Positions 576-5,010 of a stretch of DNA of 11,170 bases are shown here, one piece after another. The DNA is taken from assembly GCA_902784015.1 (NCBI GenBank), contig CACZTC010000066.1, positions 1 to 11,170 on the forward strand. Direction: 5' to 3'. The position numbers were made by a program, and so were the translations under genes. The number at the start of each line of letters is the position of its first letter. Within the stretch, counting starts at the first letter, position 1. Source of the DNA: an uncultured Erysipelotrichaceae bacterium. GTDB taxonomy: Bacteria; Bacillota_I; Bacilli_A; Erysipelotrichales; Erysipelotrichaceae. Below the pieces are notes generated by a model. It was given only the letters and a program-made list of their open reading frames with translations. It was not told where the DNA came from and did no database searches.

Positions 576-1260
576 AATATGCTCCTGGACCATGTTTTCT
601 TAAGAAATGCTTATCTAATAATTCTTGTTGCATAGATTCAACATGTGGATTAGCAATAAATGTCTTAATAGCCATTTCTGATAATACTTCTAAAACAACA
701 CTATTATGAACGGCATCAACTGGACTCTTACCCCAAGTAAATGGACCATGAGAATGCACTAATACGCCAGGCATTTGATTTGGATCAATATTTCTTTTAT
801 TAAACTCTTCAATGATGACTTTACCAGTATTAAGTTCATATTCCCCACCAATTTCTTCAGCTGTCATTTTTCTTGTGCAAGGAACATCACCATAGAAATA
901 ATCGCCATGAGTTGTTCCTAAAGCAGGAATATCTCTACCAGCTTGCGCAAAAGCAACTGCATTAGTTGAATGTGTATGGACAACGCCACCAATATCTTTA
1001 AAATTCTTATAGAATTCTAAATGTGTCATAAGATCAGAAGATGGTTTCATTTTTGAATCTACAACATTACCTTCCATATCAGTAATAACCATATCTTCTG
1101 GTTTCATTACATCATATTCAACACCACTAGGTTTAATCACAATTAAACCCTTTTCTCTATCAATACCTGATACATTACCCCATGTAAAAGTTACTAAATT
1201 ATATTTAGGAAGTAACATATTAGCTTCATATACTTCTTGTTTTAATTCTTCTAACATCAT
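565..1260 (-). CDS. ulaF: L-ribulose-5-phosphate 4-epimerase UlaF/AraD family
   Basis: Class II aldolase-fold enzyme that epimerises L-ribulose 5-phosphate to D-xylulose 5-phosphate; cytosolic, Zn-dependent in the family. At 231 residues it has the family length. Visible motifs: [11 protein letters not shown] and IKPSGVEYD (phosphate binding), PSSD (Asp76), the zinc ligands VHTHS (His95, His97) and VHSHG (His171), the catalytic Asp in [10 protein letters not shown] (Asp120), and the terminal [10 protein letters not shown] with Tyr229. [13 protein letters not shown] is UlaF-like, but the ulaABC context is the main reason to choose ulaF over araD. The start overlaps the preceding stop by one base (TAATG). 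AGGAG lies 4 nt from the first ATG (1260) and 7 nt from the second (1257), so MLEELK may be the true N-terminus. Confidence 0.95.
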
Positions 1261-2297
1261 TATTCTCCTACATATTCATATATTGCTGCTTCATTCAATG
1301 TATGATTAGCACTTAATATATATTCTTTACCAAGATGATGAATAACATCTATATTTGCTGGACCTACTCCACTTTCAATAATAGTTGCTTTATATTCACC
1401 ATCTTCATATGTGATTATAAATAATTCTGCATCTACTCTTCTAACGCCACAAACAAAGCAATTCTTACCACCAAATGAAGTACCTACTAAGGCATGGGCA
1501 AAGTCAATTTCATTAGGATAATTATAGACTTCTTTATATTCACCATTTTCATTCTTATAAACTTTTATCATATTGCCATGGAAAGGTTCAATCGTTACCA
1601 TTTCATCAACACCATCATTATCTAAATCACTAAAAGCAATTTCAGATACTCTTCCATCCATGACTTTTTCCAATTTCCAGCTTTCACCATTATATGGTGG
1701 CACTAATCTTACAATACCTTGATCACTCGCAAAATAACCACATATTTTGCCTTCATAAACACTTCTGGAATAACCATGATTATGATAGAAATTATCTCCT
1801 ACTTGTTGTAAGACAATATTGTCATTTTCTAAATCAGCAGGGATTTCGCCAACATATATTTGTCCAGGTCTACTCCAATCTTCTTTATCTCTTTTATCTC
1901 TAGCTATTGTTGCACATACTAAATAATCTTTATCATCAACATGATAAATATCAAAACGATGTAAGAATGGAAGATTAAAGATATCTTTAATAACCCAACC
2001 ATCTTCACTTCGCTTACCCCAAACAAGCTTGGCATGGCTAGGAGCAACTTTTAAATAGAATTCATTAACAGCTAAGAATTCACCTTTTCTAGTTTCAAAA
2101 GGAATGATGGACATACATCCACCTCTTTCACCGTTCCATAAAACTTCTTTTTCTTCAAATCCTTCACCAGTATAAGCAAAACATTCACTTTCAGGATTCT
2201 CTGAAGCAAATAAAGCATATACTTTATCATCTATTTCAATATGACTAGCACAATAACAACGTACTATATCATCTAATTTCTTTTTTTCGAATCTCAT
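1260..2297 (-). CDS. Cytosolic beta-propeller-like protein with FG-GAP/VCBS-type calcium motif, in the ascorbate operon
   Basis: I do not recognise a named family. The 345 residues have no signal peptide and no membrane segment. They are built from short beta-strand pairs rich in Gly, Tyr and Asp, as in a six- or seven-bladed propeller. One FG-GAP/VCBS-like loop is clear at residues 221-232 ([11 protein letters not shown]), a DxDxDG calcium site more usual in extracellular proteins. Histidines occur at fairly regular intervals in several putative blades: His19, His113 (LHRFD), His174 (YHNHGY), His240 (PFHGN), His268 (FAHAL) and His332 (ANHTL). This resembles metal-binding propeller enzymes such as lactonases or lyases. 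It lies between ulaC (6-nt gap) and ulaF (one-base overlap), which implies a role in ascorbate or related sugar-acid catabolism, perhaps lactone opening, epimerisation or dehydration; that is inference. There is no strong Shine-Dalgarno before its ATG, so translation may be coupled to ulaC. Confidence 0.85.
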
Positions 2298-2303
2298 ATT
2301 ATA

Positions 2304-2768
2304 TTACTCAACTTCACTATACTTTTCTGCTACAGCTAATAACTCCTCATCATTATTAACTTCTAATAAATCTGCAATTAATTCATCATTTGATAAAGCT
2401 TCTGCTAATTGCATCATATTATTCATATGTTCATCTGCATTACTTGAAGCTAACATAAAGAATAATCTAGCATCCTTTTCTGGATTACCTTCTTCAAAAT
2501 GAACTGGTTCATTTGTTTTCATGAAACCAATACCTGTTTTTAATACGCCAGGTGCGTTTTCTGTGCTATGAGGCATTGCGATATTTGGTGCAATAACAAT
2601 ATATGGTCCAAATTTTTCAACACATGCAATTACAGCATCAATATATTCATCTTCTATATATCCTTCATTTTTGAGCGGTACAGCATTAGCTTTGATAGCT
2701 TCACGCCAATCATCAAATCCTTCTTCATAACAAGTTAATTTCTTTTCTACTAAATCTTTTAAAATCAT
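2304..2768 (-). CDS. ulaC: Ascorbate-specific PTS enzyme IIA component UlaC
   Basis: Cytosolic phosphocarrier that takes phosphate from HPr and passes it to UlaB during uptake of L-ascorbate. It is 154 residues, the family length, and is a single PTS EIIA type-2 (mannitol/fructose-like) domain. The phosphorylated histidine is His67 in IAPNIAMPHSTENAPGV, the hallmark of this fold. Start: ATG at 2766-2768 with AAGGAG about 8 nt upstream. It is the first gene of the ulaC-propeller-ulaF-ulaE block and has its own promoter at 2811-2839. It is separated from ulaA-ulaB by 345 bases that include a terminator, so the IIA component can be expressed independently of IIB and IIC. The EIIA assignment is firm; the ascorbate assignment comes from ulaA and ulaB next door. 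Confidence 0.93.
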   Translation of the reverse strand: MILKDLVEKKLTCYEEGFDDWREAIKANAVPLKNEGYIEDEYIDAVIACVEKFGPYIVIAPNIAMPHSTENAPGVLKTGIGFMKTNEPVHFEEGNPEKDARLFFMLASSNADEHMNNMMQLAEALSNDELIADLLEVNNDEELLAVAEKYSEVE

Positions 2769-2810
2769 AAGAATCTCCTTCTAATTAGTTATTTAACTTT
2801 TATTATTTAA

Positions 2811-2839
2811 ATTATAAGTCTTATCTATTTCTCTATCAA
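2811..2839 (-). promoter_or_regulatory. Sigma-A-type promoter for ulaC operon
   Basis: On the minus strand TTGATA (2834-2839) and TATAAT (2811-2816) are separated by exactly 17 bases. The -10 box is perfect and the -35 matches consensus at five of six positions. Transcription would start near 2804, giving a leader of about 36 nt before the ulaC ATG with its AAGGAG site. Upstream, 2840-2918 is an extremely AT-rich, T-run-filled stretch on the plus strand (A-rich on the coding strand), like an UP element or intrinsic bend. I see no convincing CcpA (cre) site nearby. Confidence 0.8.
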
Positions 2840-2918
2840 TAAAATAGCTTTTTATATTTCTTTTTTTATTTTTTTTACTATTTCTTAACTTTTTTAATAT
2901 TATCTATTAGCCAATTCA

Positions 2919-2945
2919 AAAAGGGATTCAAAATGAATCCCTTTT
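2919..2945 (-). terminator. Intrinsic terminator downstream of ulaAB and the structured element
   Basis: A perfect 12-bp inverted repeat (2919-2930 and 2934-2945) with a 3-base loop. On the minus strand it reads AAAAGGGATTCA, TTT, TGAATCCCTTTT followed by one more T, the A-tract/GC-stem/T-tract layout of a Rho-independent terminator. It ends transcription arriving from ulaA-ulaB and lies about 80 bases upstream of the ulaC -35 box. The sequence is nearly symmetric, so some plus-strand activity is possible, but no plus-strand gene precedes it. Confidence 0.75.
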
Positions 2946-2954
2946 CTTAAAGAT

Positions 2955-3113
2955 TATCTATTGTCGGTCACTATGACTTTTTCTCTTTAGGAAATCGTAG
3001 CCGGCAATGATTACTCATATACTTCGTGACCAAATGGTCATGGCTCGTATTATCTAAAAATAGAGTAATAAATTATTTGTGACCTGAGTTATGAATAACT
3101 CAAGGACAAGATA
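2955..3113. ncRNA. Candidate multi-branched structured RNA or palindromic element between ulaB and ulaC
   Basis: This noncoding stretch, directly after the ulaB stop, is almost fully covered by compatible pairings. Its ends pair with each other: TATC (2955-2958) with GATA (3110-3113), TTGTC (2961-2965) with GACAA (3105-3109), and GGTCAC (2966-2971) with GTGACC (3079-3084). A side hairpin TGAGTTA-TGAA-TAACTCA sits at 3085-3102. Inside is one hairpin at 2972-2999 (TATGA with TCGTA, then TTTTC with GGAAA). A second at 3010-3069 pairs ATTACTC with GAGTAAT, ATAC with GTAT, and CGTGACC with GGTCATG. Several stems contain G-U pairs if read as plus-strand RNA, and these become A-C mismatches on the minus strand. 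However, the flanking genes and the adjacent terminator favour minus-strand transcription. It matches no riboswitch class I recognise; a small inserted palindromic repeat is the alternative. Confidence 0.5.
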
Positions 3114-3404
3114 TTACTTATCTAATCCTGCTTCAACGATCTTTTCTTCAATTTCTTGCTCAGATAATAGATTCTTTAAGCCAATGATTTTTGTTCCTTT
3201 ATCCGCTGCACTTTTAAAGTTGTCAACGAAATTAGAAGATACAAATACTACATCATAATTAGAAGCCATACTTGTTGCAGCACCAACGCTAGTGTGGTCA
3301 ACTTGTACATCAACTCCTAATTTTTTGAAGACTTTCATTATCTTCATTTTAATGATTTGGCTAGAACCCATACCATTTCCGCAAGCTGCGATTACTTTTA
3401 ACAT
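3114..3404 (-). CDS. ulaB: Ascorbate-specific PTS enzyme IIB component UlaB
   Basis: Small cytosolic phosphotransfer protein that accepts phosphate from UlaC on a cysteine and transfers it to L-ascorbate as UlaA transports it. It is 96 residues, close to the usual 95-105. The P-loop-like active site is AACGNGMGSSQIIKMKI with the phosphorylated Cys8; the GNGxGSSxxxKMK pattern is characteristic of UlaB/SgaB-type IIB proteins. A strong AATGGAGG ribosome site precedes the ATG at 3402-3404. It is 58 bases downstream of ulaA on the same strand and is the last gene before the structured element and terminator, so ulaA-ulaB form one transcription block. Confidence 0.95.
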   Translation of the reverse strand: MLKVIAACGNGMGSSQIIKMKIMKVFKKLGVDVQVDHTSVGAATSMASNYDVVFVSSNFVDNFKSAADKGTKIIGLKNLLSEQEIEEKIVEAGLDK

Positions 3405-3462: not shown

Positions 3463-4932
3463 TTAAGCTTCAAGACCTTTAGCTGCTTTATAAGCATCCC
3501 AGTCTTCTACTACTTGGAAGTAGTGCTCTGGATCTTTTCTATATTGTAATTGTGGAATAGCTAATAAAGCTAAGATGCAGATAACATAACCTACAATACC
3601 AGCATATTTTTGTAGTAAACCACCAACTAGCCATACTGTAGACATATCGAAGTTACCATGCCATCCACCATATTGATATGTTTCAAACATAGAAGCACAT
3701 ACAGCACCACCTAATACTTGGATAACACCTGATAAGAAAGTTAGAATAGCTGCAGCTTTCAAACCACTTGCTTTATTTGCGAATACCGCGAATGTAGCGT
3801 TATCGAAGAATACAGGAACGAAACCCGTGATGATTAAGATTGGGCTCTTGAATACTACTAAACCTAAGATAGCTAAGAATTGACCTAAAGCACCAAAGAA
3901 GAAACCAACGATTGGCGCATTTGGAGAACCAAAACCATAAGTAGCAGCACAGTCCACAGCTGGTACTGAACCAGGTAGTAACTTTTCAGAAATACCTGTG
4001 AATGATTCTGTTAATTCAGCAACGAACATACGAACACCAAGTTGTAAGATACTTAGATAAACTGCCATGTTGAATGCTGTTGTCATTACATAGAATGGGA
4101 AGCTGGTAAAGCTAATTCCTAAACCACCTTCATCAACTGGTGTCTTTAAGAATGTTGGGCCCAATACTGTTAATAAGACTCCGAAGAATAATAACATCAA
4201 TGTACCTGTAGCTACTACGTTATCATTGAAGATTGATAACCAACCAGGTAATTCTAATTCTTCGATTTGTTTAGCATCTCTACCACCGATAACTGGTGCT
4301 AGTTTATTAACGAGCCATACACCAAACATTTGTTGGTGACCAACTGCGAATCCGCCACCATCAGTTAAGCGTTGTGTAACTTCAACTGTTAGGTTAGATG
4401 AAACTGCCCAGAAGACACCTAAGATGATACCTAACATAATTACAGCAGTAACGTCTTGTAATTGTGGGAAGAAATAAATAACCATCCACATACCTGTAGC
4501 TGATTGTTGAACCATAATATGGCCAGTAATGAATAATGTACGAATCTTAGTAACTTTTCTTAATGCTACTAAAGCAATATTTAAGAAGAAAGCAACTAAT
4601 AGTCCTAAGAAGACTAATGATGTTGTTCTTCCTACTGCTTCTAATGCAGCATTAGCAGCAGATTGACCAAAATATGGGTCAATAACTGCAGCGTTTAGTC
4701 CAAATCTTTGGTTTAATCCAGCAAGAATAGGACGGAAGTTAGATACTAGACCACCAGATCCAACATTTAAGATCAAGTAACCTACTGTAGCCTTAACAAA
4801 GCCAGCATATGCTTGATATAAAGGTTTCTTTAATAATAAGTAACCAATTAATACCAAGAATCCGACAAAGAAGGCAGGTTGAGTTAAGATGTTACTTTGG
4901 AAGAACATCCAAATACTCTTCAGAAATTCCAT
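3463..4932 (-). CDS. ulaA: Ascorbate-specific PTS enzyme IIC permease UlaA
   Basis: Membrane channel of the L-ascorbate phosphotransferase system. At 489 residues it is slightly longer than E. coli UlaA (about 465) and has about ten or more hydrophobic helices. Segments that closely follow UlaA: FITGHIMVQQ, TDGGGFAVGHQQMF, LPGWLSIFNDNVV, GVRMFVAELTESFTGIS, LPGSVPAVDCAATYGF and FVPVFFDNATFAVFAN. The open frame extends to 4995, but the ATG at 4930-4932 (MEFLKSIWMFF) is preferred. It has an AAAGGGG ribosome site about 8 nt upstream and matches the E. coli N-terminus (MEIL...), whereas the extra 21 residues are charged and unlike UlaA. It pairs with ulaB downstream. The C-terminal tail (after about residue 465) is hydrophilic and cytosolic. 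Confidence 0.95.
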   Translation of the reverse strand: MEFLKSIWMFFQSNILTQPAFFVGFLVLIGYLLLKKPLYQAYAGFVKATVGYLILNVGSGGLVSNFRPILAGLNQRFGLNAAVIDPYFGQSAANAALEAVGRTTSLVFLGLLVAFFLNIALVALRKVTKIRTLFITGHIMVQQSATGMWMVIYFFPQLQDVTAVIMLGIILGVFWAVSSNLTVEVTQRLTDGGGFAVGHQQMFGVWLVNKLAPVIGGRDAKQIEELELPGWLSIFNDNVVATGTLMLLFFGVLLTVLGPTFLKTPVDEGGLGISFTSFPFYVMTTAFNMAVYLSILQLGVRMFVAELTESFTGISEKLLPGSVPAVDCAATYGFGSPNAPIVGFFFGALGQFLAILGLVVFKSPILIITGFVPVFFDNATFAVFANKASGLKAAAILTFLSGVIQVLGGAVCASMFETYQYGGWHGNFDMSTVWLVGGLLQKYAGIVGYVICILALLAIPQLQYRKDPEHYFQVVEDWDAYKAAKGLEA

Positions 4933-4992
4933 AAATTTACCCCTTTCGAATCTTCTATACTTTCCCTCTAAAGATAAAAAGTATTTAATAAT

Positions 4993-5010
4993 CATTAATC
5001 ATTATTAATG
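4993..5010. repeat. Inverted repeat upstream of ulaA, possible operator
   Basis: CATTAAT (4993-4999) and ATTAATG (5004-5010) are perfect 7-base arms around CATT, about 60 bases upstream of the ulaA start. The size fits a dimeric repressor site, but in DNA this AT-rich such repeats also arise by chance. No regulator gene is present in the window to support it. Confidence 0.3.

Follow-up and report, generated by a model that had tools for sequence, protein, structure and literature searches.

Terminator-linked riboswitch aptamers combine a junction core with variable loops and are followed by a terminator. Among published RNAs, the idnO motif (SRC-69-1) is described, in the part of its report available to us, as a strong riboswitch candidate located between manX and idnO, mostly in Streptococcus and also in genera of the Erysipelotrichaceae (PMC11109978). 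Internal intrinsic terminators are presented in the accessible part of another study as setting transporter stoichiometry in the ABC operons of Ruminiclostridium cellulolyticum (PMC9045158), and an sRNA derived from the 3'UTR of the glutamine synthetase mRNA, enterobacterial according to the title of the paper, has also been described (PMC9731577).

Structured RNAs with a very narrow distribution tend to escape comparative surveys, since these depend on large sets of covarying homologues. In the present case, one such RNA was revealed from three genomes through its position, its folding and a control in which the sequences were shuffled and realigned. It lies between the EIIB and EIIA genes of a phosphotransferase system (PTS) in the window, i.e. 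the whole 11,170-nucleotide stretch of DNA from an uncultured Erysipelotrichaceae bacterium that was analysed. The noncoding structured element at this site is real, but it belongs to the minus strand and has tighter limits than a sequence-only reading had given it. That reading had placed an element of the plus strand at 2955-3113; the span is indeed noncoding, lies between EIIB and EIIA and folds strongly, and only 2958-3084 within it forms the conserved unit. Because the minus strand carries the PTS genes, the plus strand is the antisense of the presumed transcript.

The PTS locus and the parts of the element

The gene order on the minus strand is an EIIC-GAT PTS permease gene (ulaA-like, 3463-4995; Pfam PF03611, E 1e-94 over 3463-4935), which is the first gene of the upstream unit, an EIIB gene (ulaB-like, 96 aa, 3114-3404; PF02302, E 1.6e-18) directly 5' of the element, the element itself, a terminator hairpin (2919-2945) and an EIIA gene (ulaC-like, 2304-2768; PF00359, E 1.5e-29). 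EIIA is followed by the gene for a 345-aa protein (1260-2297) and then by that for an AraD protein resembling L-ribulose-5-phosphate 4-epimerase (565-1260). Pfam assigns the PTS proteins to PTS_IIB and PTS_EIIA_2, with EIIC-GAT for the permease; no ascorbate-specific cut-off was reached in NCBIfam and the EIIC equivalog cut-offs were missed. The labels ulaB and ulaC of the sequence-only reading are names by homology only. The 345-aa protein gave no match in Pfam or NCBIfam, has no close relative of solved structure (best E 0.12) and was not found in the viral contigs against which it was scanned. Its gene follows EIIA in the window and in both relatives that carry the element, and a relative of it, judged by eye from N-termini, lies directly 3' of EIIB in approximately 14 of 30 EIIB loci. 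It looks like a regular, uncharacterised component of such PTS operons. At least two operon layouts occur among the EIIB loci compared (2304-3113 in the window; L035-L061), one with EIIB, a hairpin and EIIA, and the other with EIIB followed by a gene of the 345-aa-protein type. Where this uncharacterised gene comes directly after EIIB, a hairpin usually lies between the two and EIIA is absent from that place.

The conserved structured RNA is approximately 127 bases long (2958-3084, minus strand) and is modelled as a four-way junction in which P1 encloses P2, P3 and P4, with a conserved ACAA tail. The 5' strand of P1, GGTCAC (3079-3084), is identical in all three carriers, and its 3' strand, GTGACC (2966-2971), reads GTGGCC in both relatives, where the helix is retained through a U.G pair. 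Among the closing helices proposed earlier, GGTCAC/GTGACC is the conserved one; TATC/GATA, TTGTC/GACAA and the side hairpin (3085-3102) depend on a leader of 29 nt (3085-3113, minus strand) that is specific to the window, includes the side hairpin as an inverted repeat and is unconserved in the relatives, its counterpart being 8 nt in one (G012) and 13 nt in the other (G027) with a different sequence. P2 (3053-3064) pairs TCTA with TAGA around a loop of 4, 4 and 6 nt in the three sequences, and has a probability of 0.02 in the window's own ensemble. P3 (2996-3047) is formed by CGAGCC and GGCTACG; its stem is invariant in all three sequences and its apical part is variable (39, 39 and 26 nt). 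P4 (2982-2994) is a weak hairpin in the constrained folds of the window, and a hairpin is still predicted in the relatives from a different sequence. The four occurrences of GTGACC/GGTCA(C/T) counted in the earlier reading are present (2966-2971, 3026-3031, 3036-3041 and 3079-3084 on the plus strand). The alternative pairing it offered, TTGTCGG (2961-2967) with CCGGCAA (3001-3007), can form on the plus strand if one T.G pair is allowed, but has an A.C mismatch on the minus strand.

On the 3' side of the element, a 12-bp perfect inverted repeat with a U-run (2919-2945, minus strand) is a predicted intrinsic terminator, and the relatives have hairpins at the equivalent place. A strict terminator scan listed the G012 terminator and left the copies in the window and G027 unlisted. 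The gap between P1 and the terminator hairpin is 14-20 nt in 3/3 carriers.

A promoter-like site, TTGATA-17-TATAAT (2811-2839, minus strand; 11/12 matches), lies 3' of the terminator and 5' of EIIA, and TTGAAG-17-TATAAT (10/12) is found before EIIA in G012 and G027. The case for an EIIA promoter rests on this recurrence at an equivalent place, because the total counts of promoter-like sites are not above chance expectation in the window (4 against 4.0) or in G027 (1 against 1.2); G012 has 7 against 2.7. If the site does act as a promoter, the element belongs to the 3' end of the EIIC-EIIB unit and not to an EIIA leader. Paired GTTAAC motifs approximately 20 nt apart, perhaps an operator, occur between the promoter-like site and EIIA in G012 (locus L003, about 1257-1281, minus strand) and G027 (L004, about 1740-1766, plus strand), and are missing from the window. 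G027 has in addition two AACGTTCA boxes 5' of its EIIA promoter-like site (L004, about 1657-1684, plus strand), perhaps a regulator site, with a partial counterpart, CGTTCAAATAA, in G012.

Folding, conservation and distribution

The element folds better than shuffles in the sense direction, keeps its position, is conserved in three species far above chance and occurs in a single copy. Against dinucleotide shuffles, z for the stretch in the window was -4.5 (minus strand) and -4.25 (plus strand), and in each case 0/200 shuffles folded as well. For the element itself, the sense z was -3.7 in the window and -2.5 and -2.3 in the relatives (3/300 shuffles as good in each relative), and a second sense run gave -3.6, -2.05 (6/200) and -2.5 (5/200). 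The antisense values were -3.8 in the window and -0.6 and -0.8 in the relatives. For the two relatives, a clear excess of folding over shuffles is seen with the minus-strand RNA alone.

Imposing the consensus P1-P3 on each sequence gave structures 2.4, 0.7 and 0 kcal/mol above the MFE. One P1 pair changes from U-A in the window to U.G in both relatives and retains its pairing on the sense strand only. P3 has pair probabilities of 0.89-1.0 in the window and G027 and of 0.03 in G012, which in full context favours a fold without P1 (0.05) and P3. The sequence-only reading had looked to a covariance-model search for conserved position and compensatory base changes; the position beside PTS genes is conserved in the three carriers, but the paired core varies so little that compensatory changes are nearly lacking. 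Across 16 core pairs in the three sequences there is no double compensatory change, and a 25-pair RNAalifold model contains one, outside the core. Since covariation is near nil, the case for the structure is built on folding energy, on the U.G change and on position. The model of a four-way junction whose core is invariant and whose outer loops vary is plausible, not proven, and the invariance could stem from sequence rather than structure.

In the shuffle-and-align control, 62/109 ungapped columns of the element were identical three ways, compared with 20.9 on average and never more than 31 over 100 shuffles, and the longest three-way identical run was 10 in the element and 5 in the shuffles. 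The flank on the 3' side, which extends to EIIA, was at chance level (40/127 identical against a shuffle mean of 36.5). A second alignment (A2) had 63/112 columns identical three ways, compared with 23/138 fourfold sites across EIIB, EIIA and the gene after EIIA; the binomial value of approximately 2e-21 for this comparison ignores the identity gained from alignment itself. Pairwise identity of the element is 79, 70 and 59%, that of EIIB and EIIA is 76-85%, and that of the 3' flank, in a gappy alignment, is 47, 41 and 62%; for the G012/G027 pair the element stands at 59 and the flank at 62. By pairwise measures, the element does not exceed the genes in conservation. Within it, freely changing loops separate invariant runs of 10, 8 and 7 bases, and the letters of the terminator differ in all three carriers. 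Selection has retained the element, in the form of a core and not as a whole.

The element has orthologues at the equivalent site in two relatives, G012 (an uncultured Erysipelotrichaceae MAG, RUG11183) and G027 (Solobacterium sp. RGIG5123, from the rumen of a roe deer). In 3/3 carriers it is located between EIIB and EIIA, before a hairpin and U-run. A DNA search of 100 relatives aligned G012 at 81% over query positions 42-170 and G027 at 82% over 42-84. This primary-sequence search gave some match at E<=1 in 72 genomes; among the matches listed, only G012 and G027 cover a substantial part of the element at E<1e-3, and the others listed are short. Also among the matches listed, G081 (41 bits) and G091 (39 bits) have small E values and cover only the terminator side (query 178-212). 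A covariance model (R1) was built from the three sequences; in runs over more than 40 genomes it operates with stricter filters, at the loss of some weak matches. R1 matched 3/70 genomes of the genus and 7/272 of the family (E<=0.5), three of which are real (the window's genome, G012 and G027). The other family matches (L065-L068) were rejected as weak and overlapping ORFs, L068 partially. Genomes drawn from the class gave 3/395 (E<=0.02), namely the window's own and two matches (L072, L073) that were rejected as both lie within ORFs, and those drawn from the order gave 1/202 (E<=0.01), the own genome only; neither G012 nor G027 is among the matches in these two samples, for which they were apparently not drawn. 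The own genome, which is 78% complete, holds one copy. An exact-pattern scan of genome contigs had three hits, and the one in Proteobacteria UBA4457 was rejected because it overlaps an ORF. Phage and plasmid collections gave no match to the element, and viral contigs gave 0 matches to one exact pattern.

Five other genomes whose EIIB is 80-89% identical have EIIB, a hairpin and EIIA, with the element absent. In a tree of EIIB and EIIA, the three carriers cluster with a support of 0.953 against these five non-carriers, and a single gain would be the simplest history of the element. The best hairpin starts no more than 80 nt from the EIIB stop in 22/30 EIIB loci (a raw count), and at +134 to +167 in the carriers. 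It lies further downstream in L042, L043, L044, L050 and L051, although on visual inspection L042 and L043 also have one at the stop. A hairpin is thus frequent at the position after EIIB, and the element is an addition in one clade.

Possible roles of the element

The region 2958-3084 on the minus strand is tentatively best explained as an orphan structured regulatory RNA of the cis-acting receptor type, in the last part of the EIIC-EIIB transcript, directly before its terminator. The EIIC-EIIB message would carry the element in its 3' untranslated end, and the invariant junction would be the receptor for a protein or a small ligand. Specific recognition, whether of a protein, a ligand or a target RNA, is favoured over passive stabilisation because the unpaired junction bases are invariant. 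The element may act in cis on the message end, either through termination and read-through into EIIA or through processing and decay, and the outcome would be that EIIC-EIIB is tuned against the unit of EIIA, the uncharacterised protein and AraD, which seems to possess its own promoter. The element probably helps to set the output of EIIC-EIIB and the genes that follow. If it senses something, it would place a control point within a PTS, with EIIC-EIIB on one side and EIIA on the other. The broader proposal, that it belongs to a new class of RNA which senses a ligand or a protein from the 3' end of a PTS transcript, balances EIIC-EIIB against EIIA and catabolic enzymes and arose once in one Erysipelotrichaceae lineage, is rather unlikely. 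R1 provides a ready covariance model with which gut metagenomes can be searched.

The element is classed as an orphan structured RNA, not as a riboswitch, and a trans-acting sRNA or a passive stabiliser also fits its position. The chief competing readings are riboswitch control of read-through and a released sRNA. A riboswitch or attenuator, in which a ligand would decide between a stop at 2919-2945 and read-through into EIIA and the later genes, is unlikely. It would account for the multi-helix core, the invariant junction, the variable loops and the terminator that follows at short distance in 3/3 carriers. The conserved part, a candidate for an aptamer-like core, is invariant in 3/3, in a set of three sequences that shows 0 double changes in the 16 core pairs and in which the G012 ensemble prefers another fold. 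An alternative pairing exists in G012 and G027, where GTGGCC of the P1 3' strand can pair with GGCTAC of P3 and is so used by the MFE of G012, but it has a C.A mismatch in the window. The sequence-only reading had suggested mutually exclusive folds near a terminator; a conserved element does lie just before the terminator hairpin, but no antiterminator shared by the three sequences was found, and the terminator pairs are strong. In predictions for the three sequences, the 5' arm of the terminator finds no shared upstream partner when its 3' arm is omitted, and with the element present the terminator pairs at 0.90-1.0, one pair being at 0.66. EIIA expression may not need read-through, because the promoter-like site lies downstream of the terminator in 3/3 carriers.

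It is likewise doubtful that the element is the body of a stable sRNA that RNase cleavage would free from the 3' end of the EIIC-EIIB message, with the intrinsic terminator as its end and other mRNAs as its targets. Element and terminator form a compact 3'-end unit of about 166 nt (2919-3084), and the 3'-terminal position with an intrinsic terminator corresponds to that of 3'UTR-derived sRNAs, which are known from the glutamine synthetase case as far as the available part of that report goes (PMC9731577). The minus strand has no promoter-like site between 2840 and 3480, which is consistent with processing. The conservation, however, spans stem bases and the unpaired stretches between them, not one long unpaired seed. 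It is quite improbable that the element is a passive 3' stabiliser or terminator spacer, as an enlarged form of the simple hairpins that relatives have after EIIB. The hairpins close to the EIIB stop in 22/30 loci would agree with this, as would the internal hairpins that set gene stoichiometry in ABC importer operons, as described in the accessible part of that study (PMC9045158). A passive hairpin requires no conserved letters, yet 62/109 columns are kept while the terminator-bearing flank is at chance and the letters of the terminator itself differ in all three carriers.

A functional RNA or promoter on the plus strand, antisense to EIIB, is very unlikely: the plus-strand z of the window stretch is as low as -4.25 and weak promoter-like sites (9/12) stand at an equivalent place in the window (3026-3053) and G012 (L003, 1572-1599), but antisense folding of the relatives is unremarkable (z -0.6 and -0.8), with one P1 pair broken in each, the window's promoter-like count is at chance and G027 lacks the site. 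The remaining suggestion, insertion of a small palindromic MITE-type mobile element behind the EIIB gene, which the sequence-only reading had offered as its alternative, has a terminal 6-bp inverted repeat (GGTCAC/GTGACC) and the restriction to one clade on its side, but it is extremely unlikely and largely refuted, since the element is single-copy in a genome that is 78% complete, occurs in the relatives at the orthologous site only with conservation far above chance, and is unmatched in the phage and plasmid collections and, for one exact pattern, in viral contigs.

Comparison with known RNAs

At the gathering score, Rfam 15 has 0 matches in the window and 0 in L003, L004 and four other loci, and the earlier statement that the element matches no riboswitch or T-box holds at that score. 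SR6_antitoxin (25.2 of 55 bits, plus strand), STnc40, SpR19 and the other Rfam leads were rejected as far below the cut-off and non-recurrent across the three sequences; the SR6-antitoxin-like match, the lead on the plus strand, does not recur in the relatives. Nothing in the search listings of the open-licence literature, which were mostly all that this covers, describes an element between these genes, and the main text of two ncRNA surveys (PMC8040213, PMC8632094) contains no mention of phosphotransferase or ascorbate.

The nearest published RNA found is the idnO motif, going by the available part of its report (PMC11109978), and the gene context of the two differs. Both are large structured RNAs in a spacer between a PTS gene and a sugar-metabolism gene; the idnO motif lies between manX and idnO, unlike the present element, whose neighbours are the EIIB and EIIA genes of an EIIC-GAT system. 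The strings TACTCTAT, ACGAGCC and GGCTACG are absent from up to approximately 330 nt upstream of idnO in 24/24 family loci, none of which is shown as manX-idnO; 30 idnO loci were fetched, with the upstream gene listed for six and shown as manX in none, and in the class eight genomes were reached and the upstream regions of two were read.

Like terminator-linked riboswitch aptamers, the element as modelled has a junction core and variable loops and then a terminator; unlike them, it matches no Rfam 15 family at the gathering score, has no antiterminator that could be found and is placed after the first genes of its cluster. With the sRNA from the glutamine synthetase mRNA, as far as its report was available (PMC9731577), it would share the location at the 3' end of a metabolic message, and here the RNA is known from sequence alone. 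By analogy, the nearest mechanism would be that of the internal terminators in clostridial ABC operons, going by the part of the study available (PMC9045158). A stem-loop and U-run lie between a transporter gene and the next gene at 2919-2945, with equivalent hairpins in the relatives. As in R. cellulolyticum, an intra-operon stem-loop after a transporter gene would split upstream from downstream expression, which is a prediction for the present locus; that system consists of ABC importers and stem-loops, whereas here a conserved multi-helix element precedes the terminator.
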